64,000 nucleotides of DNA from Kutzneria buriramensis (GTDB lineage: Bacteria > Actinomycetota > Actinomycetes > Mycobacteriales > Pseudonocardiaceae), in NCBI RefSeq assembly GCF_003387475.1, contig NZ_QUNO01000007.1, forward strand, positions 372,001 to 436,000, in the 5' to 3' direction. The notes beneath the pieces are model-generated. The model was not told where the DNA came from. It did no database searches and saw only the letters and a program-made list of their open reading frames with translations. The first letter of the stretch is position 1. The number at the start of each line of letters is the position of its first letter. Below, in pieces: positions 5,883 through 64,000 of this stretch. Made by a program: the position numbers and the translations under genes.

Positions 5883-8222
5883 TCACCGATCCCAGATTTC
5901 TCGTTGTTCGGTGACCCATGCCGCGAGCTGGGTGCGTTTGGTAAGGCCAAGCTTGGCCAAGATGTGTTCGACGTGGCCTTCGGCGGTGCGTTGGGCGATC
6001 ACCAACTGGGCGGCGATGTCCTTGTTGGACAGTCCCTTGGCAACGAGCTCGGCGACCTGCTGCTCCCGCTTGGTCAGGGGTGATCTCGCGGTGGGAGCCG
6101 GGGTAGGGGGTGCGGGTTTCTCGCCCAGGGCGTAGGCAATGGCCTGATCCAGGTCGAGCGCGGTGCCACGGCCGAACGCAGCCTGGAAGGCGCGGTCGCC
6201 GAGACGGTGGCGGGCCTGGCGCTCGCACGCCTCACGCGCGGCGCGGTGATGTTTGAAGTCGAGCGCGGCCGGGTCGCCAAACAGCGGCCAGAGCTGGTGC
6301 GCCGCGCCGAGCAGCACGGTGGCCCGTTCGCACTCGCCGGCCTCACTGGCGATCCAGGCCAGCCGCTCAATTTGCAGCGCCGTGCCGACAGGGTCGCGGA
6401 AGTTGCGCATGTCCCGGAGATTTTCCCGGGCGTGCGCGCCCGCCTGCGTCACCTCGCCTCGTGTCCATTCGGCGAGGGACAGGGTGCTGACCACATAGGA
6501 TCGGGCCCATTGCTCACCATGTCGCTCACACAGCGCCATGCCCTCGCCGCAGAGCTCGATGGCGCGGTCCGAGTCTCCCTGGAGAAGGACCACCGCGGCC
6601 AGCAGGGCATGGGCGAGGATCACGTTGGTGCTCAGTTCGCCCAGCACCTCGAAGCGTGCCAAAACATCCTCGACCAGCATCTGCGCGCGTGGCAGGTCGC
6701 CGTTGAGCCGTGCGAGAAGGCTCCGGGTGAACTGGGCGCAGGCAAGCGTGGTCTCCGCGCCCCGTGGTACGGCCCAGTCCCAGCACTCCTGTGCCATGGC
6801 TGTGGCGGCGGGGTAGTCCCCTTGCAGTGCGCTGATGTGGGCGGCGGCGCACAGGGCAGTGGCCCGCGGCTTGCTCGGCTCGGTGTCCAGGGCCAGCGCC
6901 CGGTCCAGCCAGTGGCGCCCCTCGGCCAGCAAGCCGCAGCAAAGCCAGTAGAACTGCAGAGCCGCGGCCATCCGGAGTCCGGTCTGGGACTCGCCGGGAG
7001 TGGTCAGGCAGTACTTCAGGGCGACGCGCAGATTGGGGTGTGCGGACCGGATGTGGGCGGACAACTCCAGCTGGTTGGGTCCGAACCACTCGGCCTCGCC
7101 CCGTTCGGCCAGCCCCAGGTAGTAGTCCCGATGCCGCCGACACAGCACCGCCTCCTGCCCACCCGCCCGCAGTCTGTCCCGCCCGTAGTGGCGAAGCGTG
7201 TTCAACAGCCGATACCGTGCCCAGGCGTGATCCTGGTTCTCCCGGATCAGGATCGACTTGTCCACCAGCCCGGTCAGCAGGTCAAGTACCTCTTCGCGGG
7301 CGATGCCGTCCCCGGCGCACACCGCTTCGGCCGCGTCCAAGTCGAACCCGCCGGCGAACACCGACGCCCGCGCCCACAGCGTCTGCTCCGCCGGCGAACA
7401 CAACTCGTAGCTCCAGTCCACCACCGCCCGCAACGTCTGATGCCGGGGCAACACCACATGGCTGCCCCCGCGCAGCAGACGGAAGCGGTCGTCCAGCCGA
7501 GCCAGGATCTGCTCCGGAGACAGCACCCGCACCCGCGCCGCGGCCAACTCGACCGCCAACGGCAGCCCGTCCAGCTGACGACAGATCCGGCCGACCGTCG
7601 CGCGGTTGTCGGCCGTGACCTCGAAGTCCGGTCGTACGAGCATGGCTCGCTCCGCGAACAGGTGGATCACGTCGTCGCCAACGGGTCTTCCCCGCAGCGG
7701 TGGGTGTTCCGGGTCCGGCAGCGGCAGCGGCAGCACCACAAGGAGTTGTTCGCCCGGCGCGGACAGCGCCTGTTGGCTGGTGGCCAGGATTCGCACTTCC
7801 GGCGCCGCGGCAAGCAGTTCGGCCGCCAAGTCCGCACAGTACTCCGCCACGTACTCGCAGTTGTCCAGCACCAACAACAGCTGCCTGTCCCGGAGATAGC
7901 CCACCAACACGTTCCGTGGCGACCGCGTGGTCCGATCCCGAATCCCCATGCTGTCCGCGACCGTCTGGTCCACCAGCATGTGATCCTGCAACGTGGCCAG
8001 CTCCACCAGCCACACCCCGTCGACGAACGCCCGCCGCACCCCTGCCGCCACCCGCAGCGCCAGCCGACTTTTGCCCACCCCACCCGCACCGGTCAACGTC
8101 AACAACCGGGCGACGGACAGCAGCCGTTTCGTCTCGGCGACCTCCCCCCGGCGGTCCACAAAACTGGTCACTTCAGCAGGAAGATTGCCACGCTGCCGCA
8201 ACTGGTGCCCGACCGCCATCAT
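5883..8222 (-). CDS. LAL-type LuxR regulator with NB-ARC-like ATPase
   Basis: 779-aa STAND regulator. Walker A GAGGVGKS is at residues 45-52 and Walker [10 protein letters not shown] near 117, followed by the [13 protein letters not shown] helical motif typical of AfsR-like ATPases, a TPR-like helical middle, and a LuxR helix-turn-helix in the last 65 residues ([20 protein letters not shown], then [16 protein letters not shown]). Such proteins bind ATP and an inducer, oligomerise and activate promoters. Two adjacent ATGs (8222, 8219) are possible starts. It is a close paralogue of the 41141-43432 gene in length, domain order and motif wording. Target unknown. Confidence 0.9.
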
Positions 8223-52022: not shown

Positions 52023-53078
52023 CTAGCTCGCGGCGACGACCGGCAGCGGGGTGTGCGGCGGGCGCTTGTCGATCCGGGCGCGGTCCTCGTCGGAACCGAA
52101 GTGGTAGTCGATGGCACGAGTCGCGACGGCCCAGTCCCGACGGGTGTGGATGCTCCTGAGGGTGTCGAGCACGAAGGGATCGTCCCAGCGGGCGCGGGCC
52201 CGCCGCCAGAGGACGGCCGCGTCCTCCTCGAGCAAGTTTCCGACGATGCCCTCGTAGACGGGCATGGCCCGGACGCCGCCGTCGGGCTCGATCTCGAGCG
52301 GACGGTAGCTCGGGGTCTCGGAGATGAAGGTCGGATGGATCTGGACGCCGAAGTTCTCGGTGGTTTCGACCTCGACGGTGGCCGGGGCGGCGTGCTGTAG
52401 GCGGCTGCGCATCTCATCCGAGACCAGCTCGGCGACCTGGTCGTCGCTGGGGAGCTCGTGCTCGACGAACGACTCCGTGCTGGCCAGGCCGGAGGGAATG
52501 ACGGCGCCGAATTGCAGCGACTCGAGGTGCGGGAACCGGGGGGCCACCTCGGTGCAGAACTCCTCGAGGTGGTCGACGTTGCTGCGGATGACGACGCAGT
52601 CGATGCCGAACCGCAGGGGCTTCTCGCCGGCGTCGACGCGGCGTCCGGCCTCGGCGTCGATCATCGCGAGGGATTTCATCGCGCGGTCGAAGGACCCAGC
52701 CCGGCCGCGGATGGCGTCGTGCACCGCCGGATTCGGGCCGTCGACGCTGACGACGATCTTGGTGACCACGTCGGCGAGAGCGGAGAGCAGCGTTGGCTGG
52801 AGGTTCCAGCCGCTGGTGTAGACGAACACGTTCACCCCACCCTCGGCGAACCGCTCGGCGACCTCGGCGAGGTGTCGCAGCGCGGTCGGTTCGCCGCCGC
52901 ACAGCGAGATCATGTGCGGCTGGAGGGAAATGATCGCATCGGTGATGCGGAGCGCGTCGTCGCGACCGATGACCTGCGGAGCGCGTCGCCCCGACTCGGT
53001 GAAGCAATGGGTGCAGCGCAAGGGACATGCGTAGGTCATGTCCCAGACCATGACGTTCGGACCATCGATGAGTTCCAT
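52023..53078 (-). CDS. Radical SAM protein with cysteine-less SPASM-like tail
   Basis: 351 aa. The [4Fe-4S]/SAM site CPLRCTHC (Cys18, Cys22, Cys25) and GGEP (61-64) are intact, with the barrel continuing to about residue 215. The C-terminal part keeps the SPASM-type frame EPDGGVRAMPVYEGIVGN (264-281), but the position that normally carries cysteine (DGxVxPC) is Ala-Met and no auxiliary-cluster cysteines remain. Such enzymes modify peptides or small molecules by radical chemistry. Start ATG 53078; GTG 53087 is possible. Divergent from a 12-codon ORF and two ABC exporters, which suggests a peptide substrate (inference). Confidence 0.85.
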   Translation of the reverse strand: MELIDGPNVMVWDMTYACPLRCTHCFTESGRRAPQVIGRDDALRITDAIISLQPHMISLCGGEPTALRHLAEVAERFAEGGVNVFVYTSGWNLQPTLLSALADVVTKIVVSVDGPNPAVHDAIRGRAGSFDRAMKSLAMIDAEAGRRVDAGEKPLRFGIDCVVIRSNVDHLEEFCTEVAPRFPHLESLQFGAVIPSGLASTESFVEHELPSDDQVAELVSDEMRSRLQHAAPATVEVETTENFGVQIHPTFISETPSYRPLEIEPDGGVRAMPVYEGIVGNLLEEDAAVLWRRARARWDDPFVLDTLRSIHTRRDWAVATRAIDYHFGSDEDRARIDKRPPHTPLPVVAAS

Positions 53079-53277
53079 GACACGCACGGTAAGAACAGCA
53101 CGCCGCGCGTGCGTCGGTATGCGGGTACGCAAAGTCCGCGCTCGGTACGCACCGCGCGGGACGGCGTTGCGGCGGTCGGCTAGGTATTCCCGTCGGGCTT
53201 TGGGTAGTGCGGTACCGATGTCCGGTGGCCCGCGGCGGCCTAGCTTCGAAACGGGCGTGCTGTTCAGCGCCACGGAC

Positions 53278-53291
53278 GAAAGGTGGTGAGA
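53278..53291 (+). promoter_or_regulatory. Extended Shine-Dalgarno sequence of the 12-codon ORF
   Basis: GAAAGGTGGTGAGA matches the complement of the 16S rRNA 3' end (GAAAGGAGGTGATC) over nearly its full length, with one internal substitution in GAAAGGAGGTGA. It ends 4 nt before ATG 53296. Far stronger than needed for an ordinary gene here, and good evidence that the tiny ORF is translated. Confidence 0.7.
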
Positions 53292-53295
53292 CATC

Positions 53296-53334
53296 ATGGC
53301 TTTCCCTCCGACGACCCTCGGCGGCACCCGCTGA
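53296..53334 (+). CDS. 12-residue peptide ORF (candidate RiPP precursor or leader peptide)
   Basis: ATG to TGA encodes MAFPPTTLGGTR. An extended Shine-Dalgarno sequence precedes it. A 17-bp-arm hairpin begins 13 nt after the stop, followed by two ABC exporter genes on the same strand; a radical SAM gene diverges on the other side. As a precursor it would be among the smallest known, with no separate leader. As an attenuation leader, the FPPTT stretch could stall ribosomes and change the hairpin. An upstream 23-codon ORF (53218-53289) lacks a good ribosome site, and its stop lies inside this Shine-Dalgarno. Confidence 0.55.
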   Translation: MAFPPTTLGGTR

Positions 53335-53347
53335 TCGACAACCGGTG

Positions 53348-53388
53348 ACACGGTGGTCGCCTCCGACAGCGAGGCGACCACCGTGTCG
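53348..53388 (+). terminator. 17-bp-arm hairpin between tiny ORF and exporter genes
   Basis: GACACGGTGGTCGCCTC (53348-53364) pairs perfectly with 53372-53388 around a 7-nt loop. No U-tract follows. It stands 13 nt after the tiny ORF and 36 nt before the first exporter ATG. Likely a partial terminator, attenuator or mRNA-stabilising element giving more peptide than exporter message. Confidence 0.75.
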
Positions 53389-53424
53389 TCTGTGGACAGT
53401 CCGAGTCGATGAAACGGGTGGAGC

Positions 53425-55239
53425 ATGGCAACAAGCAGTGGCAGTGCGGTGTTGACGCTCGTCCGGCAGTTGCCGCGGATATCCGGCGGCCTCACGGCTG
53501 CGCTGATCATGCTCATCGCCGTGCAGGTCGCCGCGAGCGTGCTGCTCCCGCTGGCCGCCGGGCAGCTTGTGGCCGCGCTGACCGGCGGTGGGCCGTCCGC
53601 GATGCCGGGCGTGCTGCTCGGCCTCACGTTATTCTCCTGCGTGCTGCTGTCCGACGTCGTGTTCGATCCCATCCGGGCGATGACGTCCGCCCGATTGGGC
53701 ACCGCCGTCGACGGCGCGATGACCCAGCGGACGGTGGAGGGCGCGATGCGCCCGGCCGGCGTCGCGCACCTGGACGACTCCGCGGTGGCCGATCAGATCG
53801 AGCGCGCCCGCGCGATCGGGCTCGGCGGATACCCACCAGGGCAGGCGGTGATCGCACTGGCGGGGCTCGTGCCGCTGCGGTTGGGTGCGGTCGGGTCCGG
53901 TGTGGTTCTTGCCGTCGCCGGGCACTGGTGGATGTCGGTGGTGCTCGGTGCGGCCTGGGCGATCACCGGACACTGGCAGCAGCGTGAGGTCGAGCGCTCG
54001 GTGTCCGCGCACGGCGCGCAGACCGCTGAGCTCCGGCGCGCGGCCTACCTGCGCGACCTGGCGGTCACCGCGCCGGCGGCCAAGGAGGTGCGGCTGTTCG
54101 GGATGCACTCGTGGATCCTGGAACGGTTCACCGCCGCGTGGTGGGACGGCATGGTCCAGCTGCGCCGGGCCACGACGAACTGGCGCCTGCACAGCATCGC
54201 GATCCTGCTGGTGCTGATCGCCCACGCGGCTGTGCTGCTGCCGCTGGGCTTCGCCGCGGCCCACGGCGACCTGCCGGCCGACCAGCTCGCCGAGGCGTTG
54301 CAGGCGATGCTGGGGTTGTGGGCGTTCGGGTACACCGGCGACCTGGTCTGGATGCTGCACATCTCGAGCGCCTCCGTGCCCGCTGCGGTGGCGGTCTCCG
54401 GACTCGGCGTGGCGGCGACCGGCGGCTCGCGCGACGCCGAGGGATCGCCCCGCGCCGAGATCCGGTTCGAGCGGGTGCGGTTCGCCTATCCCGGCGACCG
54501 GCCCGCGGTGCTCGACGGGCTTGATCTGGTGATACCGGCGGGGTCGTCGCTGGCCATCGTCGGCGACAACGGCGCCGGCAAGAGCACGATCACCAAGCTG
54601 CTGGCCGGACTGTACACACCGGACAGCGGCCAGGTCCTGGTCGACGGATATCCGCTCGGCGACTACGAGCCGGCCTCCTGGCGGCGGCAGCTCGCCATGG
54701 TGTTCCAGGACTTCGTGCACTATCCGTTCTCGATCCGGGACAACATCGGTTTCGGCCGCGTCGAGGCGCCGCCCACCGACGAGCGGGTGGCCGAGGCGGC
54801 TCGACTCGGTGGCTTCCTCGGCGTGGAGGCCGACCTGGCCGACGGCTGGGACGCTCGGCTCAGCGCCGAATACACCGACGGCACGGAGCTGTCCGGTGGG
54901 CAGTGGCAGCGGCTCGCGTTGAGCCGCGCGCTGTTCGCTGTGCGCCAAGGCGCCCAGGTGCTCGTTCTCGACGAGCCGACCGCGCACCTGGATGTCCAGG
55001 CCGAGCACGACCTGTACGCCCGATTCCTGGAGATCACCGCAGGCATCACCACGATCCTGGTGTCCCACCGCTTCGCCACCGTCCGCCTCGCCGATCGGAT
55101 CGCCGTCGTGCGATCGGGACGGATCAGCGAGTACGGCACCCACGAGGAACTGCTGGCCGCGGGCGGCCGGTACGCGCGGATGTTCCGCATCCAGTCCGAG
55201 CCGTTCGCCGCGAAGGGAGGAACCCGCCGTGCGCACTAG
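53425..55239 (+). CDS. ABC exporter half-transporter 1 (fused TMD-NBD)
   Basis: 604 aa. An N-terminal membrane domain of about 6 helices (about residues 20-320) is joined to an ATPase with GDNGAGKST (Walker A), FQDFVHYPFSIRDNIGFGRV, the signature LSGGQWQRLALSRAL and LVLDEPTAHLD (Walker B). It is the type that pairs with a second half-transporter to export peptides, lipids or drugs. ATG 53425 follows GGTGGAGC. The next gene starts inside its 3' end, so both halves are made together as a probable heterodimer. Confidence 0.92.
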   Translation: MATSSGSAVLTLVRQLPRISGGLTAALIMLIAVQVAASVLLPLAAGQLVAALTGGGPSAMPGVLLGLTLFSCVLLSDVVFDPIRAMTSARLGTAVDGAMTQRTVEGAMRPAGVAHLDDSAVADQIERARAIGLGGYPPGQAVIALAGLVPLRLGAVGSGVVLAVAGHWWMSVVLGAAWAITGHWQQREVERSVSAHGAQTAELRRAAYLRDLAVTAPAAKEVRLFGMHSWILERFTAAWWDGMVQLRRATTNWRLHSIAILLVLIAHAAVLLPLGFAAAHGDLPADQLAEALQAMLGLWAFGYTGDLVWMLHISSASVPAAVAVSGLGVAATGGSRDAEGSPRAEIRFERVRFAYPGDRPAVLDGLDLVIPAGSSLAIVGDNGAGKSTITKLLAGLYTPDSGQVLVDGYPLGDYEPASWRRQLAMVFQDFVHYPFSIRDNIGFGRVEAPPTDERVAEAARLGGFLGVEADLADGWDARLSAEYTDGTELSGGQWQRLALSRALFAVRQGAQVLVLDEPTAHLDVQAEHDLYARFLEITAGITTILVSHRFATVRLADRIAVVRSGRISEYGTHEELLAAGGRYARMFRIQSEPFAAKGGTRRAH

Positions 55240-57130
55240 CCTCGCCGCCGTCCGGGTACTGGTGGGCACCGCGATTCGGGTGGATCCGCCGCGCGCGGTG
55301 CTGGTGCTCACGCTGACGCCGCTGATCAACATCCTCGCGGGCGGGCAGCCCATCGGCATTCAGTGGATGGTCGACGGCGCCACCGGGAGACAGCTCGGCC
55401 AGGCGGTCGCCGGCGCGTTGCTGCTCGTGGTGATCACCATTGCGGCGCACCAGATCACCAGCGTTGCCACGGACCTGCGGCTGGTGCTCGAGCAGCGGGT
55501 CGCGCTGGAGTTCGACCGGCGGCTGATCACCGTCTGCGCCGGCCGGGCGCACATCGATCACTTTCAGGACGCGGAGTTCCTCGATGCCGCCGAACTGGTC
55601 CGGCAGCGGCGCGGTCAGCTCGGCGGCGCGCTGTCCGCGTTCGTCGAGAACGTCAACCTGATGGCCAGGTTCGTCGGGTCCGCGGGGCTGCTGGCGCTGG
55701 CGAACCCGGTGCTCGCGCTGCTGCCGCTGTTCGTCGTGCCGCTCGCCTTCGCCATCCGGTGGCAGTCGCGGCTGGTCAGCACGGCCGAGCAGGCCGGCGC
55801 CGAGACCGACCGGCTGCGCCGGTCGATGTTCTCGCTCGCGACCGATCCGGCCGCCGCCCGAGAGTTGCGGCTGTACCGGCTGTCCGGCGAGATCGGCGCC
55901 CGGCATCGGGCCGCGTTCGCCGCGGCGAGTGGGCCGAGGGAGGCGGCGCGGCTGAAGGGTGCGCTCGCCGTCGCGGCCGGCTGGCTGCTGTACAGCATCG
56001 GCCTGGTCAGCGGACTGTTCCTGGTGGCCCGAGCGGTGATCGACGGCACCGCGTCCGCGGGGCAGGCGGTGCTCGTCGTGCTGCTCGGCACCCGGCTCGT
56101 CATCGCCACCACGGGTTTGGGTTGGCTGTTCGGCTGGCTTCGGCGCACGCTGGACACCATCGGGCTCTACCTGCGGCTGGTGCGGTACGCCGAGGATGCC
56201 GACGAAAGCAGGGAAACGGACCGTCCCAGCCGGGGTGATCTCGTGCTGCACGGGGTCAGCTTCAGCTACCCCGGTCGGCCGGTACCCGCGTTGGGGCCTA
56301 TCGACCTGAGGCTGCCGGCCGGCTCCACGGTCGCGGTGGTAGGCGACAACGGCGCCGGAAAGTCCACCCTGGTCGCACTGCTCGCCGGCCTGTACCCGCC
56401 GTCGTCCGGCTCGATCACCCTTGCCGGCCGGAATCTGGCCGACACCCCGCCGCAGCTGTGGCGGCGCGACATCGCCGCGTGCTTCCAGGACTTCTGCCGC
56501 TTCGAGTTCTCGGCCGGCGAGACGGTGGGTGTCGGCGACCTCACCAAGCTGGGCGACCCGGACGCGGTGGCCGGCGCCCTTGCCGCGGCCGGCGCAGCCG
56601 ACGTCGTCGCCGGCCTCCCGTCCGGTGTGGACACTCAGCTCGGGCGGACCCTGCCGGGTGGCACCGATCTGTCCGCCGGTCAGTGGCAGAAGCTGGCGCT
56701 GGCCCGAGCGCGGATGCGGACCGAACCCGCGCTCGTGCTGCTCGACGAGCCCGCGGCCAGCCTCGATCCGGACAGTGAGGCCGAGCTGTTGCGCCGGCTG
56801 CTCGCGGCCGGCCCGACCCGAGCAGTGATCACGGTGATCGTGTCGCACCGATTCACCACCGTGCGCGAGGCGGACCTGATCGTGTTGCTGGACAAGGGCG
56901 AGCTCGTCGAAGTCGGGACGCACGCCGAGCTCATCGCCCGGGACGGTCGGTACGCGCACATGTACGCGCTGCATGCCGCGGCGTACACGTCAGCGGCCGA
57001 AGGGGAGGTCGCGGCGGGAATGCACTCCGATCTTGTGGTAGATCCGCGACAAGTGGCTCTGCACGGTGCGGACGGAGATGTTCAGGCGGCGGGAGATCTC
57101 CCGGTCGGTCAGTCCGCTGCCGGCCAGTGA
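55229..57130 (+). CDS. ABC exporter half-transporter 2 (fused TMD-NBD)
   Basis: 633 aa from GTG 55229 (GAAGGGAGG upstream), overlapping the first exporter gene by 11 nt. Membrane domain with about 6 helices, then GDNGAGKST, CFQDFCRFEFSAGETVGVGD, a degenerate signature LSAGQWQKLALARA and LVLLDEPAASLDPD. LSAGQ in place of LSGGQ suggests an asymmetric ATPase site in the heterodimer. The last 47 codons run antisense to the end of the convergent LAL gene (141-bp overlap) and look non-conserved, as if the original stop was lost. Confidence 0.9.
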   Translation: MRTSLAAVRVLVGTAIRVDPPRAVLVLTLTPLINILAGGQPIGIQWMVDGATGRQLGQAVAGALLLVVITIAAHQITSVATDLRLVLEQRVALEFDRRLITVCAGRAHIDHFQDAEFLDAAELVRQRRGQLGGALSAFVENVNLMARFVGSAGLLALANPVLALLPLFVVPLAFAIRWQSRLVSTAEQAGAETDRLRRSMFSLATDPAAARELRLYRLSGEIGARHRAAFAAASGPREAARLKGALAVAAGWLLYSIGLVSGLFLVARAVIDGTASAGQAVLVVLLGTRLVIATTGLGWLFGWLRRTLDTIGLYLRLVRYAEDADESRETDRPSRGDLVLHGVSFSYPGRPVPALGPIDLRLPAGSTVAVVGDNGAGKSTLVALLAGLYPPSSGSITLAGRNLADTPPQLWRRDIAACFQDFCRFEFSAGETVGVGDLTKLGDPDAVAGALAAAGAADVVAGLPSGVDTQLGRTLPGGTDLSAGQWQKLALARARMRTEPALVLLDEPAASLDPDSEAELLRRLLAAGPTRAVITVIVSHRFTTVREADLIVLLDKGELVEVGTHAELIARDGRYAHMYALHAAAYTSAAEGEVAAGMHSDLVVDPRQVALHGADGDVQAAGDLPVGQSAAGQ

Positions 57131-59506
57131 GGCGACCTCGATTTCCCGCGCGGTGAGCTCGGCTGGCGCCGCGGCCGGCGCCGCGATCCGCCGTCGCAGG
57201 CGGCTGACCAGCGCTGCCGCCCGAGGACCGTCCGGCGCGGACGGTGCGGCCGGGTCGACCAGCTGCCAGGCCCGCCAGGGCAGGTCGAGCGCGTCGAGCC
57301 GGGTCGCGTGGTCGATCAGTTCCGCCGCATCGCCGCGGTGCAACGACAAGGCGGCCTCGGCGACCGCGACGAGGCGGGCCGCGTCGATGCCACGAGTGAC
57401 GGTGGCGAGCCGGTTGGTCACATGGCTCGGCGCCCGGTGGCGGGTGAGTTCCATGGTGTAGGCCAAGTACTCCGCCTCGATCGCCAGGCAGCCGGCTTCC
57501 CTTGCGTCGCGGGTCGCGTCCTCGATCGCCGTCAACGCGGCCTCCCGCTGGCCGCGGGCGACCGCGATCGCCGCCGCGGCACGGAAGGTCAGGCCGGGAA
57601 TGACGGCGACGCGATCGGGCCGGCCGGTGCCGAGCACCTGCGCGGCCGCATCCGGTTCACCGTACTCGGCGAGGCAGATGGCCAGCCAGCATCGGGCCTC
57701 GGTATGGAACAGGCGCTGCCCGCCGGACTGTTGGACCACCGCCTCGCGGAGCCGGGCGATGGCGCCCGCGCGGTCGCCACTGAGCCACCGCTGGTGGCCG
57801 GCGAGCAACGGCCAGTCGAACAGCGGACGCCCGGCGGTCCGCATCCCGACCGGCAGCTGGCCGGATCCCGGTGCGCTGTGCGGTATCGGCGCGTCGTGGT
57901 CGCGCCACTGGTCGATGAAGCCGAGCACGGCAGCGGCCGCGCCGGTCGCGTAAGCCACCTGGGAGCGCTGTTGCGTCCCAAGCTGGGCCAAGGTCGCCCG
58001 TGCGGCAGTGGTCTGTCCGGTCAGGGCGAGGGCGGCGCCCAGCGCCAGCCTGGCCGGCACGGACTCGGGCGAACCGGTCAGCACCTGCTCGGCGCGTCGC
58101 AGCGCGTGCGTGGTGTGCCTCCCGAACAGCAGCACTAGCGCGTCGAGCCCATCCAGCGCGGCCCGACCCGCGCGAGCTCTTGTCACGGCGCGCAGGCTTG
58201 TCAGGTCCTGGTGTGCGCCGGCTGGATCGCGGTCCACCCAGCATCGGTGCGCGGCCAGGGCGAGACTGACGCGAAGCCGGCCGCCCTGAGTGCCCGCCGC
58301 GTCACGCGCCTGCTCGAGCATCTGCCGGGCCCCGGCCGGATCGCCCAGTTCCACCAGCGCATTGGCGAGTGGCACGGCGGCGGCGTCGGAGTTCTCCATG
58401 GCGCGCCGAGCGAGCCGTTGGGCCAGCTCCGGATCGTCCTGGTAGCTCGCGTCGGCGGCGTGGATGAGCAGCCGGGTGTCGACCGGGCCGCCGGCGTCCA
58501 GTTGCCAGCGCGCCCTGGTCACCAGGTCGACCGCGGCCGGGTCGGTCACCGCGAGCAGGTGCGCGGCCAGTCGCCGGCGGCGTAGCCGGGGAAGGCGGCT
58601 GCGGAGCAACGCCGCGAACAGTGGTTGCTCCAGCCGCACCACGATCTCCCCGTTCAGATCGGTTGTGTGCAGCATGCCCTTGTCGTCCAACGCCTCTACC
58701 CCGTCGGAGGCCATGCTCTCCAGCGCTGTCAGGGAAAGCGGCTCGCCCAGCGCTACCGCGTCCAGCGCGTCGGTCTGCCCGTCGGGCACCTCGCGCAGGC
58801 GCCGGTCGAACAGCTCGACCAACCGGGGCGGCACGGCCAACGGGCCGCGCCACCACCACAGGCCGTCCCGCTGCACCAGTCGCCCGGTCGATTCGGCGAA
58901 TCGTATGAGCTCGGTCAGGTACAGCGGGTTGCCGCCGGTCCACTGGTGCAGCAGCTGCACCGTCGGCATGGCCACCTCGCCGCCGACCATCCCGCCCGCC
59001 AGTTCGGCGGTGCCGCCGACGTCGAACGCGGACAGGTCCAGCCGGCGGAGGTAGCCGTCCTTCCACAGCGCCACGACGGCATCCGGCATCGCCGCGTCCA
59101 GCCGGGCGGTGACCAGCAGCCGCACGCCCGGGTGGCTTGCCAGCGTCAGTGCCTTCGTCGCCGACCAGTTGTCGAGGTGATGCGCGTCGTCGACAACCAG
59201 CACTGGCGTCCGCGTGCCGGCCCGCCGGACGAGCTCCGGCAACAGCCGGTCCGGTCGGCCGTCGCCGTCGAACATGGCGCCGAAGACGCCGAACGGCAGC
59301 TCGCGGCCAGCTTCCGTGGCCACCATGCGGATCACGGCGTAGCGCGTCGGGTCGAGCCGGTCGGCTATGGCGGTCAACAATGCCGTCTTACCCACGCCGG
59401 TCGGGCCGACAATCGCCGCCCCCCGTCCGCTCACCACGGCGGCTGACGCACGCTCCTTTTCCCGATCCCTGGCCACGAACTGGGTGGGGATCACACCATG
59501 CGACAT
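56990..59506 (-). CDS. LAL-type LuxR regulator beside the peptide/exporter locus
   Basis: 838 aa. Walker A GPTGVGKT at residues 34-41, Walker B PVLVVDDAHHLD, a TPR-rich middle, and a C-terminal LuxR HTH (LTAREIEVASLAGSGLTDRE, RTVQSHLSRIYHKIGV). ATG 59506 with GAGGAG upstream is preferred to the open frame from 59866, whose extra 120 codons look non-coding. It converges on the exporter genes with a 141-bp overlap of coding ends. Probable activator of the 52-57 kb locus (inference). Confidence 0.9.
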   Translation of the reverse strand: MSHGVIPTQFVARDREKERASAAVVSGRGAAIVGPTGVGKTALLTAIADRLDPTRYAVIRMVATEAGRELPFGVFGAMFDGDGRPDRLLPELVRRAGTRTPVLVVDDAHHLDNWSATKALTLASHPGVRLLVTARLDAAMPDAVVALWKDGYLRRLDLSAFDVGGTAELAGGMVGGEVAMPTVQLLHQWTGGNPLYLTELIRFAESTGRLVQRDGLWWWRGPLAVPPRLVELFDRRLREVPDGQTDALDAVALGEPLSLTALESMASDGVEALDDKGMLHTTDLNGEIVVRLEQPLFAALLRSRLPRLRRRRLAAHLLAVTDPAAVDLVTRARWQLDAGGPVDTRLLIHAADASYQDDPELAQRLARRAMENSDAAAVPLANALVELGDPAGARQMLEQARDAAGTQGGRLRVSLALAAHRCWVDRDPAGAHQDLTSLRAVTRARAGRAALDGLDALVLLFGRHTTHALRRAEQVLTGSPESVPARLALGAALALTGQTTAARATLAQLGTQQRSQVAYATGAAAAVLGFIDQWRDHDAPIPHSAPGSGQLPVGMRTAGRPLFDWPLLAGHQRWLSGDRAGAIARLREAVVQQSGGQRLFHTEARCWLAICLAEYGEPDAAAQVLGTGRPDRVAVIPGLTFRAAAAIAVARGQREAALTAIEDATRDAREAGCLAIEAEYLAYTMELTRHRAPSHVTNRLATVTRGIDAARLVAVAEAALSLHRGDAAELIDHATRLDALDLPWRAWQLVDPAAPSAPDGPRAAALVSRLRRRIAAPAAAPAELTAREIEVASLAGSGLTDREISRRLNISVRTVQSHLSRIYHKIGVHSRRDLPFGR

Positions 59507-60002: not shown

Positions 60003-60938
60003 TCACCACGTCTTGAGCGACGTTCCGAGGTAGGAGACGAAGGCGGCGACGTTGGCGGACGCGCCGCCGGGTGGTTTGGGCCAGGATTCGGCGCAGTCGG
60101 CGAACAGCGGGCCGAGGCGATCGCCGAGCTTGGCGGCGAGGGCGGGCGCATGGCGGGCGACTGCGCGAGATCGCTTGCGGCCCAACGCGGATCGGGCGAC
60201 ACCGACTCGGTGGGCGTCGAAGTCCGGCGGCGGCTCGGTCAGCCCTACCAACGCTTCGGCCAGCCGGGCCTGCATCGCCGCCAGTTCCGACCGAACAGCC
60301 GGCGCGACGGACGGCTCCGGCCGCGACGGGAGGCGGACCAGGTTGCGCGGTAGGGCCGCGGGCGGACCGGTGTTGGGTGGCTCTCGGCCGGCGGCGGTTC
60401 TGATGGTGGCCAGTTCGGCGGAAAGCGTTGCGGCGGTGGGATAGTTGCCGTCGCGCTCCAGCATCACGGCGGGCAGCGACGTTCGGTGGGCGAGTTCGGT
60501 CAGCAGCGCCAGGATGGGTTCGGGCACCGGCGCGGTGTGCGTGTCGTGCCACACCCCGTCCCGTAACTCGCCGCCGGCTACGTGCACGTACGCGATCCGG
60601 TCCAGCGGCAGCGCGTCGAGCGCGGCGCTCGGATCGGCGCGGAAGTTGATGGCGGAGCTGACCAGGTTCGCGTCCAGTTCCGCCTGCTCGTGAAGGTAGT
60701 TCAGGAACGAGAACCGGCTCTGCGGGTTTCGCAGGGTCACCAGGTCCTTGAGGAACGACACCTGGCTGCGCACCCACTGCAGGAGCAGGCTTCGCTGCCA
60801 CTTGACGTCCGGACACTGCTCCAGCACCAGGGTGTTCGTGGCCAGCTCCGGCACCCCGGACTCCTCGATCGCGACGGCGAGCGCCAGGTTCGACGGTCCC
60901 GCACTGATCATCAGAACATCGACATCTTGCTTGATCAC
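60003..60938 (-). CDS. Chimera: N-monooxygenase N-terminus fused to DUF692 C-terminus
   Basis: 311 aa in one frame. Residues 1-85 (VDVLMISAGPSNLALAVAIE, QVSFLKDLVTLRNPQSRFSF) are the FAD-binding start of an L-ornithine/lysine N-monooxygenase, with Ser for the first Gly of GxGPxN. From about residue 88 it becomes the C-terminal part of a DUF692 multinuclear-iron oxygenase (ALDALPLDRIAYVHVAGG, GVWHDTHTAPV, VMLERDGNYP), plus that family's C-terminal helical extension. Neither enzyme is complete. A deletion joining two former neighbours in frame is the simplest origin. DUF692 enzymes modify RiPP cysteines. Confidence 0.75.
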   Translation of the reverse strand: MIKQDVDVLMISAGPSNLALAVAIEESGVPELATNTLVLEQCPDVKWQRSLLLQWVRSQVSFLKDLVTLRNPQSRFSFLNYLHEQAELDANLVSSAINFRADPSAALDALPLDRIAYVHVAGGELRDGVWHDTHTAPVPEPILALLTELAHRTSLPAVMLERDGNYPTAATLSAELATIRTAAGREPPNTGPPAALPRNLVRLPSRPEPSVAPAVRSELAAMQARLAEALVGLTEPPPDFDAHRVGVARSALGRKRSRAVARHAPALAAKLGDRLGPLFADCAESWPKPPGGASANVAAFVSYLGTSLKTW

Positions 60939-61321: not shown

Positions 61322-61874
61322 TCTTTTGTGTCCCCTCGGCTTCGCTGATGTCACCACGATTCAAGCCACCGCGATGGCTGGCCGAAAGCATTAATAGGCT
61401 TCTCGGGTCTCGCCATGACGGACTCTCTCCCCATACATCGACTCGACTACATCGCATACACCGCTGGATGCCCGCCGCGGCAGCCGCGGGGGCGTGTTGA
61501 CGCCGGTGTCGGCTTGTCGCCACCGATGCGGCGAAACTCCAGGTACACCAGAGTAAGGAGAGCCTTGCTCGGTTGGATCCTCACCGAGCGATCCCTGACC
61601 GAGCGAAGCGAGTACTGCGAGTAGCCGTGCGAGATCATGTGTCATGCGAATCCTGCGCCCCGTTGCATTTAGTGGGTGCCGTACCACGGTCGTGGTGTCG
61701 GCTTCCACGGCCCGACCGATCCCCTCCGCCAGTCGGGCCGCCGCCGGAACCACGATGCGCCGACACCCCTGACCACACCTTGGCGAGAACCTTGATGCGG
61801 CAGGTCAGGACCGCTGCGCCCACGACCAGGGCCCGGGGATACGCGGGAGTTGCATGACACCTAGGGAGCCGCCT
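61322..61874. other. Intergenic region upstream of AfsR/SARP gene
   Basis: No gene recognised. GCTCGGT (61567-61573) and ACCGAGC (61583-61589) form an inverted repeat, and ACCGAGC recurs at 61598-61604. This could be a small regulatory structure about 280 bp before the regulator start. Confidence 0.4.
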
Positions 61875-64000
61875 ATGGCGGAGGAGTTCCGAGTACTCGG
61901 CCCGGTGACGGCCTCCAGCGACGGCCGCCCCGTCGAGCTCGGTCCCGCGCAGCAGCGGTGCGTACTGGTCACGCTGCTGGTGCAAGCCAATCACCCCATG
62001 CCGGTCGAGCAGCTGGTGGACCGGGTCTGGGGGCACGACCCGCCGCAGCGCCACCGCGAGGTGCTCTACACCTACCTGTCCCGCCTCCGGAAAACCCTAG
62101 CCGGTACCGGGGTGACGATCACCCGCTGCGGCGGCGGCTACCTGCTGAGCGTCGACGAGGCAGCGGTGGACCTGCACCGTTTCCGCCACCTGGTCACCCG
62201 CGCCCGCGCGAGCCCGGACGACCAGCAAGCCCTGGCATTGTTTGACCAAGCCCTCGGCCTATGGCGGGCAGAGGCCTTCGCCGACCTGGACACCCCCTGG
62301 CTGGCAGGCCTCCGCGCGACCCTGGACGCCGAGCGGAGGGCCGCCGAACTCGACCACACCGACACCGCGCTGCGCTGCGGCCGGCACACCGAACTGCTGC
62401 CCGCACTGGCCACCCGCGCCGCGCAGCACCCACTGGATGAACGCCTGGCCGGCCAACTGATGCTCGCCCTGTACCGGTCCGGCCGGCAGGCCGACGCCCT
62501 GCAGCACTACCATCACAGCCGCCAACGACTAGCCGAGGAACTCGGTACCGATCCCAGCGCGCCACTACAACAGCTGTACCAACAGGTCCTGACCGCCGAC
62601 CCGCACCTGGCCAGCCCGACACACGGCACGGCCAGCCACCGCCGACCGCCGGTGCCGCACCAGTTGCCGGCGCCACCACGATGCTTCACCGGACGTACCA
62701 GCGAGCTGGCCGCGCTCACCCAAGCCCTGGACGCCGGCTCAGAGGCGGGGGCGACGGTAGTGATCTCCGCCATCGGTGGGGCGGGTGGGATCGGCAAGAC
62801 CGGGCTGGCTCTGCACTGGGCCCACCAGCACCTCGACCGGTTCCCCGACGGGCAGCTGTACGTGAACCTGCGCGGCTTCGACCCCACAGGCGAGCCGATG
62901 CCGACGGAGGCCGCGGTGCGCGGTCTCCTGGACGCCCTCGGCGTGGACTCCGGCGCGATGCCGGTCGACCTGGATGCTCAGGCCGCGTTGTACCGCAGCC
63001 TGGTGGCCGGCAAGCGGATGCTGATCCTGCTGGACAACGCCGTCGACGCCGCCCAGGTCGCCTCGCTGTTGCCTGGTAGCCCCACCTGCACGGTGGTGGT
63101 CACCAGCCGCAACCAGCTGACCGGTCTGATCTCCACCCACGGCGCCCGCCCCCTGCCCCTGGACGTGCTCGACGAGCCGACGGCTCGTGACCTGCTCGCG
63201 TACCGGCTGGGCGCGGATCGGCTGGCCGGCGAGCCGGAGGCCACCGCGGAGTTGCTGGCCTGCTGCGCAGGGCTACCGTTGGCGCTGAGCATCCTCGCCG
63301 GCCGCGCCCAAACCCACCCCGACTTTCCGCTGGCCGTGCTGGCCTCCGAGTTGCGTGATGCCAGTACCCGGCTGGGTGCCCTGGATGAGGACGTGCCGTC
63401 CGCCAGCCTGCCCGCGGTGCTGTCCTGGTCCTACCGAACCCTCACCACCGAGCAGGCGCGGGTCTTTGGGCTGCTGGGCATCGCCCCCGGCCCGGACATC
63501 AGCCTGCCCTCCGCCGCCAGCCTCACCACGCTGTCGCCCAACCAGGCCAGGGCCGCGCTGCGGGCCTTGGAGCGGGTCTCCCTGATCCAGCAACAGGTCC
63601 CGGGCCGCTACCGGATGCACGACCTAGTCCGCCTGTATGCCGCCGGCCAAGCCCACCACGACCAGCCCGAGGACGTGCGGGAGGCGGCGCTGCGACGGGT
63701 CCTCGATTTCTACATCCACACCGCCCACACCGCCGACCGCCTCCTGGATCCCCACCGACCGGGCATCCGGCTCGACCCGCCTGCCCCCGGCACCCACCCC
63801 CACCCCTTGCCCGACGCCCCGGCGGCGATGGCCTGGTTCGCCACTGAACACGCCAACCTGCTGGCCGCCCAAGAGACCGCCATCACTCACGCCTGGCACG
63901 GCGCGGTGTGGCAGCTGGCCTGGACCCTGACCAGCTTCCACCTCCGGCGGGGACGCCTCCACGACCAGTACGCCGTGTGCCGGGCTGCGGTGGACGCCGC
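61875..64000 (+). CDS. AfsR/SARP-family regulator (3' end outside window)
   Basis: Open from ATG 61875 to the window end, at least 708 codons. An OmpR-type winged HTH (EFRVLGPVTASSDGRPVELG) comes first, then the BTAD domain (VDLHRFRHLVTRARA to about residue 240), then an NB-ARC ATPase with GGAGGIGKTGLALHWA (Walker A), MLILLDNAVDAAQV (Walker B) and GLPLALSILAG, then the start of a TPR region. AGGGAG 6 nt upstream supports this ATG; ATG 61854 is an in-frame alternative. AfsR-type proteins integrate signals to activate antibiotic genes. It shares no operon with its neighbours here. Confidence 0.93.
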   Translation, partial: MAEEFRVLGPVTASSDGRPVELGPAQQRCVLVTLLVQANHPMPVEQLVDRVWGHDPPQRHREVLYTYLSRLRKTLAGTGVTITRCGGGYLLSVDEAAVDLHRFRHLVTRARASPDDQQALALFDQALGLWRAEAFADLDTPWLAGLRATLDAERRAAELDHTDTALRCGRHTELLPALATRAAQHPLDERLAGQLMLALYRSGRQADALQHYHHSRQRLAEELGTDPSAPLQQLYQQVLTADPHLASPTHGTASHRRPPVPHQLPAPPRCFTGRTSELAALTQALDAGSEAGATVVISAIGGAGGIGKTGLALHWAHQHLDRFPDGQLYVNLRGFDPTGEPMPTEAAVRGLLDALGVDSGAMPVDLDAQAALYRSLVAGKRMLILLDNAVDAAQVASLLPGSPTCTVVVTSRNQLTGLISTHGARPLPLDVLDEPTARDLLAYRLGADRLAGEPEATAELLACCAGLPLALSILAGRAQTHPDFPLAVLASELRDASTRLGALDEDVPSASLPAVLSWSYRTLTTEQARVFGLLGIAPGPDISLPSAASLTTLSPNQARAALRALERVSLIQQQVPGRYRMHDLVRLYAAGQAHHDQPEDVREAALRRVLDFYIHTAHTADRLLDPHRPGIRLDPPAPGTHPHPLPDAPAAMAWFATEHANLLAAQETAITHAWHGAVWQLAWTLTSFHLRRGRLHDQYAVCRAAVDA

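Follow-up and report, generated by a model that had tools for sequence, protein, structure and literature searches.

A 64,000-nucleotide stretch of the Kutzneria buriramensis genome (contig NZ_QUNO01000007.1, hereafter the window) contains a compact cassette of genes arranged around a tiny open reading frame (ORF). The ORF is located at 53296..53334 on the plus strand, runs from ATG to TGA in 12 codons, and encodes the peptide MAFPPTTLGGTR, which we propose to be a leaderless precursor peptide. It is preceded by an extended Shine-Dalgarno (SD) sequence, AAAGGTGGTGA (53279..53289, +), the single match to AAAGGWGGTGA in the window (one occurrence in 64 kb on both strands, with 0.01 expected), and relatives have sequences of the GGAGGAGGTGA / AGAGGAGGTGA type in its place. 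Downstream is a perfect 17 bp hairpin with a 7 nt loop (53347..53387, +), a possible terminator or attenuator between the peptide gene and two genes for ATP-binding cassette (ABC) half-exporters, ABC1 (53425..55239, +; 604 aa) and ABC2 (55229..57130, +; GTG start, signature LSAGQ); the start of ABC2 overlaps the end of ABC1, and the Walker A motifs are intact in both. Divergent from the tiny ORF is the gene for a 351 aa radical S-adenosylmethionine (rSAM) enzyme (53078..52023, −; Pfam PF04055) with a CxxxCxxC motif and a cysteine-less, SPASM-like C-terminal part, and convergent with ABC2 is a gene for a LAL-type LuxR regulator (59506..56990, −) with AAA, TPR and GerE helix-turn-helix domains. 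The open frame of the regulator extends to 59866, and the ATG at 59506 was taken as its start because similarity to relatives begins there. A first-pass annotation of this DNA had described the 12-codon ORF at 53296, its extended SD, the overlapping exporter pair and the divergent rSAM gene, all of which are recovered on re-reading the sequence; the hairpin it reported does have perfect arms, but follows the stop codon by 12 nt rather than the 13 nt given there.

Conservation of the tiny ORF

The tiny ORF is real and is conserved at the amino acid level. In a tree of 86 rSAM rows, from which seven loci already present under another number were left out, the window falls within a 14-row clade (support 100/100) whose named members belong to Streptomyces, Plantactinospora and Actinorhabdospora, and in which L038 and L039, on separate contigs of a single strain, have rSAMs of identical sequence. 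Several features of this clade are pertinent. First, the order of a divergent rSAM gene and tiny ORF followed by hairpin, ABC1 and ABC2 is present in all 14 rows, with the tiny ORF and the start of the rSAM match 215–326 nt apart; a convergent LuxR orthologue occupies the same place in 13, and in the fourteenth, L039, the contig end is met first. Orthologues of ABC1 in these cassettes are 60–69% identical and those of ABC2 58–68%. Second, the peptides are clearly related: alongside MAFPPTTLGGTR of the window are MAYPPTGLGR (L018 and L020, the latter with a GTG start), MAYPPTGVGR (L019), MRAYPPVDAS (L033), MMYPPPTVGD (L034, from Streptomyces flavofungini), MMYPPPTTGGN (L040 and L042), MRKYPDVGA (L043), MMYPPPTVGTGR (L035, L038 and L039), MMYPPPTVGDAS (L036) and MMYPPPTTSGPRPS (L037), and an aromatic residue before proline is kept in every row. 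Third, the codons vary most often at their third positions; eight chosen rows were aligned by hand over four codons of the motif (for an aromatic residue, Pro, Pro/Asp and Thr/Val), with one Pro of the PPP rows omitted, and positions 1, 2 and 3 differ in 19, 26 and 53 of 112 codon pairs, which are not independent. Finally, no genes beyond those for the rSAM, ABC1, ABC2 and LuxR proteins are common to different genera among 13 loci compared. The first-pass annotation had proposed as its test that the tiny ORF be kept at the amino acid level beside homologues of the rSAM and both ABC genes, and this is what is seen in all 14 rows, each of which has a putative precursor gene conserved beside an enzyme of modifying type, as expected of a ribosomally synthesized and post-translationally modified peptide (RiPP).

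The window ORF cannot extend upstream, since an in-frame TGA lies two codons 5′ of its ATG, and the cassette thus has no room for a leader on the precursor. In-frame stops 2–5 codons upstream are present in eight of 20 tiny ORFs (five of the 14 clade rows, the window included) and rule out a hidden longer precursor; the remaining 12 have longer open upstream frames, reaching 156 codons in L027, so that the argument is direct for those eight only. Double-glycine processing at the LGG sequence was considered and rejected, since no peptidase C39 domain was found on ABC1 or ABC2, for which Pfam gives ATPase-type domains only. These observations, together with the contrast with leader-bearing relatives described below, favor the leaderless peptide that had been suggested on first inspection. 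The window peptide has 12 residues and no Cys, and is without the leader plus Ser/Thr…Cys core expected of class III lanthipeptides.

Distribution and specificity

The distribution of the cassette was examined in a family set of 390 whole genomes, 13 of which have rSAM protein matches at E values of 1e-50 or better, at 17 places. A 17-protein rSAM alignment was then compared with a species-level genome collection, where the best 80 of 137 confirmed matches represent 76 distinct loci. A phylum-wide sample gave no further match, only the window's own genome among 396 being found, and the spread of the family is therefore drawn from the species-level collection; a first contig scan with a single protein query gave no match.

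The pattern GGTGA-N3-7-ATG-GCN-TWY-CCN-CCN-AC, which joins the SD to the sequence MA[FY]PPT, is present in three of the 390 family genomes, each time within the cassette, and the reversed control gives none. The fourth cassette genome, G187, was missed because of its GTG start. Orthologues of ABC1 with at least 65% identity are found in four of the 390, and these are the same cassette genomes; an ABC pair in a fifth genome, G233 (42% identity), passes the E-value limit, with no rSAM gene or tiny ORF within the 4.8 kb examined. Across the 2.8 million strand-bases of the window and 90 loci there are 24 entries for ORFs of 9–15 codons with an SD match of at least 9/11, and 22 of them have an aromatic-Pro motif in their first residues. 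All are rSAM-adjacent save for a single stray (L070), the 23 adjacent entries including three second-ATG double entries and one duplicate locus. A 12-codon ORF alone is common, and its presence ahead of the ABC genes could in principle be due to chance; however, its retention in 14 of 14 rows, the third-position bias of the changes and the restriction of the pattern to three genomes, in cassettes only, lead us to reject this explanation as having a negligible probability.

A sister group with other downstream genes

Five further loci have an ORF of 11–12 residues located directly 3′ of the rSAM gene; its SD is strong, as is the accompanying hairpin. Their peptides are MAFWPPAKGTHA (L023), MAYWPPTTVSH (L025), MAYWPPTKVSH (L026) and MAWPSWPEGIR (L027 and L028). 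Together with L029 and L044–L048 these loci form an 11-row group with modest support (82/83), which joins the window clade, again with modest support (82/70). The genes downstream of these tiny ORFs encode a major facilitator superfamily (MFS) transporter and an M28 aminopeptidase in L025 and L026, which also have in common a SARP-type regulator upstream; elsewhere in the group an aminopeptidase (L023) or an MFS relative (L027 and L028) is encoded there. L029, in the window's own genome, holds an rSAM paralogue (9051–8056 of that locus, −; about 50% identical), which is followed by a 12-codon ORF, MALPKLDPRKTW, with a strong SD and no hairpin of comparable strength.

Leader-bearing relatives

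In the remainder of the family the rSAM gene is typically accompanied by a gene resembling that for a class III lanthipeptide synthetase (LanKC). By tblastn a LanKC-like stretch is present in 57 of the 65 other distinct loci (51 above 250 bits) and in none of 13 clade loci (the window apart) or six sister-type loci; by Pfam there is none among the window's cassette genes. A RamC_N plus LanC-like domain is present in all four of the LanKC-like proteins tested (L047, L058, L064 and L081).

A precursor rule requiring an acidic LQ/ALQ/ALD-type leader plus an SD was applied to the 65 loci and returned 42 candidate precursors in 31 of them, 39 of which have [WFYH]P after residue 12. Among distinct candidates 37 of 40 have [WFYH]P, as against a mean of 7.2 and a maximum of 17 in 1000 rounds of shuffling. 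The rule followed earlier finds, some of them motif-aided, and close relationships are common among the candidates, so that this evidence is strong but not blind. Three candidates are without the motif: two, in L068 and L076, have the look of chance ORFs, and the third, in L069, is a sibling of two peptides that do have it. Some of the cores, such as ..AWPPPTACSCC, are nearly equal to the tiny peptides; L046 has ..SAWPPTTICLCCVQD and L047, with an AWPPPT precursor, has ..GAWPPPTACSCCSTF. Cores are also present in L030 (..ALWPCNTSSTASGRLES) and L031 (..VAWPCLPL), both of which the leader rule missed.

A LanKC-like gene, an rSAM gene and precursors whose core opens with [WFYH]P[CPE] are found together in L046, L047, L048, L058, L065, L070, L077, L089, L096, L105, L106, L108 and others. 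These loci apparently constitute a subfamily of lanthipeptides that has an rSAM enzyme to itself, no description of which was found in the literature searched. Neither the wider rSAM family nor its link to lanthipeptides featured in the first-pass annotation.

Other arrangements are also seen. L024 has three tandem, similar precursors of 27–29 aa at about 7650–8000 (−), with LWPC[RQ][IV]TI at the end and a single rSAM gene. L021, L074, L092 and L093 each have two rSAM copies about 4.7 kb apart; in L021 the intervening DNA has ABC genes. The family extends outside the Actinomycetota to the myxobacterium Hyalangium versicolor (L098), which has no LanKC-like gene and only a weak precursor candidate, an upstream 30 aa ORF with TYPN. 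L049 is an rSAM relative without a LanKC-like gene or visible precursor, and its adjoining gene looks to be of phage-tail-sheath type.

The hairpin and the possibility of attenuation

The arms of the hairpin (53347–53363 and 53371–53387) lie within a 201 nt fold with a z score of −3.2. All 13 loci that were aligned retain inverted-repeat arms, and in L018, L020 and L034 the stem is followed by a T-run. The simplest reading is that the hairpin acts as a terminator with read-through, which would yield abundant mRNA for the peptide and a smaller amount for the exporters, although it may be a protein-binding inverted repeat. That it is a repeated genome element was considered and rejected, the stem pattern being present at two places in the window's genome and the reversed control at one each way.

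The main rival to a peptide product is that the tiny ORF encodes a regulatory leader peptide, with ribosome stalling at the proline run refolding the hairpin and switching the exporters, and with the peptide itself having no role as a product. The short ORF, the strong SD, a stop codon just 12 nt before a strong stem, the two or three consecutive prolines in 13 of 14 rows, and the T-runs in three loci are all consistent with such a device. However, the stop-to-stem distance ranges from about 6 to 18 nt (by eye), the aromatic residue preceding proline is kept in 14 of 14 rows, and the related ABC pair of G233 has neither an rSAM gene nor such an ORF within the 4.8 kb examined. Furthermore, in the sister group the same type of ORF directly follows the rSAM gene and has other genes downstream, and leader-bearing precursors encoded near members of this rSAM family have the motif in their cores, where attenuation offers no explanation. 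These last two observations in particular weaken the stalling-leader explanation, which we regard as improbable.

The radical SAM enzyme

Only three cysteines, Cys18, Cys22 and Cys25, are invariant in the 86 rows, corresponding to a CxxxCxxC motif present in all of them, and there is no further invariant Cys to suggest an auxiliary Fe-S cluster. The C-terminal stretch EPDGxVRAM..YEGTVG is cysteine-free and resembles a SPASM domain. In an AlphaFold2 model (pLDDT 94, pTM 0.91) the first strand begins at residue 9, and no recognition domain is seen ahead of the barrel, with which the model starts. In Foldseek comparisons SkfB ranks first (6efn; E 9e-16, TM 0.66), followed by structures of SuiB, BlsE, a sactipeptide maturase (5why) and viperin, and SkfB is also first in a PDB profile search. 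No known rSAM name could be assigned, there being no near-cut-off NCBIfam match among the 25 best of 55; the best is to a mycofactocin maturase, at 90 of 265 bits.

The small-molecule enzymes BlsE, DesII and viperin are among the fold neighbors, and it could be argued from these that the rSAM enzyme acts on a small molecule, or on another protein, and that the tiny ORF has a different role in the cassette. Against this, the rSAM clade and the peptide motif strictly co-occur, the family as a whole is linked to aromatic-Pro precursors, and the nearest enzyme by both fold and sequence is SkfB, a RiPP maturase. We consider this alternative very improbable.

If the tiny peptide is the substrate, our first guess at the reaction would be an oxidative link from the aromatic ring to a carbon two residues on (aromatic1-Pro2-X3). 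The aromatic1-X2-X3 arrangement resembles the rule of the three-residue cyclophane formers. This guess is tentative, and a reaction other than cross-linking or epimerization is given equal weight. As a further variant of the chemistry, the enzyme could be an epimerase generating a D-residue at or beside the aromatic residue, consistent with the absence of auxiliary-cluster cysteines and with Cys175 (75 of 86 rows) as a potential hydrogen donor. Cys175 is replaced by Ala, Ser or Val in 11 rows, however, including clade member L043 with its intact tiny ORF, which excludes it as an obligatory donor, and the epimerase EpeE does not appear before rank 49 in the Foldseek list; epimerization seems unlikely.

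A candidate class of leaderless, ultrashort RiPPs

We propose that the cassette encodes a leaderless ultrashort RiPP, in which the tiny ORF is both the precursor and the rSAM substrate, and, chemistry aside, we estimate the probability of these two roles jointly at roughly 0.8. Its predicted product is thus a RiPP by kind, set apart as leaderless, ultrashort and rSAM-based. The tiny ORF would be highly translated to give the leaderless precursor; the divergent rSAM enzyme would read the N-terminal aromatic-proline motif directly (F-P-P in the window, Y-P-P-P in Streptomyces) and modify the peptide there; and the ABC1/ABC2 pair would export the product. The LAL-type LuxR protein is a candidate regulator of the cassette, possibly with a role as sensor of the product. 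The precursor may have its origin in the N-terminal core of the class III lanthipeptide precursors encoded near the sister rSAMs, or the two may have a common ancestor; loss of the leader and the lanthionine segment is a plausible route.

Several observations weigh against this proposal. The L043 peptide has YPD rather than YPP, the ORF following the L029 rSAM has no aromatic-Pro motif, and in L044 and L045, also in the sister group, neither a precursor nor LanKC was found. The leader rule, besides not being blind, gave no precursor in 34 of the 65 loci, some of which yielded one by other rules. The window stem has no T-run and is not listed by a terminator scan, and no sigma-70-like promoter was found in 53050–53450. 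Finally, Cys175 varies as noted above, and the known cross-linking RiPP rSAMs use auxiliary clusters, to be set against an enzyme with three invariant cysteines only.

A broader proposition, which we hold to be evenly balanced, is that this rSAM family reads a bare aromatic-Pro core with neither a leader nor a recognition domain, and that precursors have been stripped to leaderless genes of 9–14 residues in the window clade and probably in the sister group. These would represent a new ultrashort class of rSAM RiPPs with interchangeable exporters, made by an enzyme with no auxiliary cluster and through an undescribed reaction at aromatic-Pro-X. No description was found under the peptide strings or the topic in the literature searched, although bioRxiv and most subscription papers were beyond its scope and an earlier description is possible.

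ORFs of 9–14 codons are easily overlooked by routine gene calling and genome mining, and the present case offers a search route that combines an enzyme family, an extended SD and an aromatic-Pro motif. If the rSAM substrate is indeed leaderless, the enzyme would be conveniently applied as a biocatalyst to short synthetic peptides. How a RiPP pathway can lose its leader would also become directly testable, through the range of precursors that extends from leader-bearing lanthipeptide types to the bare core.

Relationship to known systems

The biarylitides (BytA/BytO, and myxarylin) likewise combine a ribosomal precursor of very few residues with a single enzyme that acts at an aromatic residue, but they use a cytochrome P450 and a pentapeptide, whereas the window has an rSAM enzyme, an ABC pair, a LAL regulator and a peptide of 12 aa (9–14 in the clade). 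A preprint on P450-cyclized ribosomal peptides (bioRxiv 616194) reportedly claims leaderless substrates in its title; its enzymes are P450s, unlike the rSAM here. In the accessible part of one report a five-residue biarylitide precursor is called the shortest reported, with the first two of its five residues treated as a leader (PMC12951456).

Class III lanthipeptides (RamC/LanKC) are related in that 57 of the 65 other rSAM-family loci have a LanKC-like gene and the precursors there often have the same aromatic-Pro core (AWPPPT, LWPCAN); in contrast, the clade has no LanKC-like gene (13 of 13) and the window peptide has neither leader nor Cys. The accessible part of a lanthipeptide survey mentions rSAM genes in the clusters in general terms only (PMC7268733). 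The nearest rSAM RiPP maturases are SkfB, by fold and sequence, and then SuiB, by fold, from both of which the window enzyme differs in having no auxiliary-cluster cysteines, no visible N-terminal recognition domain and a leaderless substrate, as proposed.

Other features of the window

Near the cassette is a gene for a SARP-type regulator with BTAD and NB-ARC domains (61854–64000, +), outside the gene families common to the compared loci. Two partial proteins are combined in one ORF at 60003–60938 (−), which looks like a remnant or a fusion: the N-terminal segment of a lysine/ornithine N-monooxygenase (profile positions 3–83 of 339) and the C-terminal segment of an MbnB/TglH/ChrH-type RiPP enzyme (169–261 of 263).

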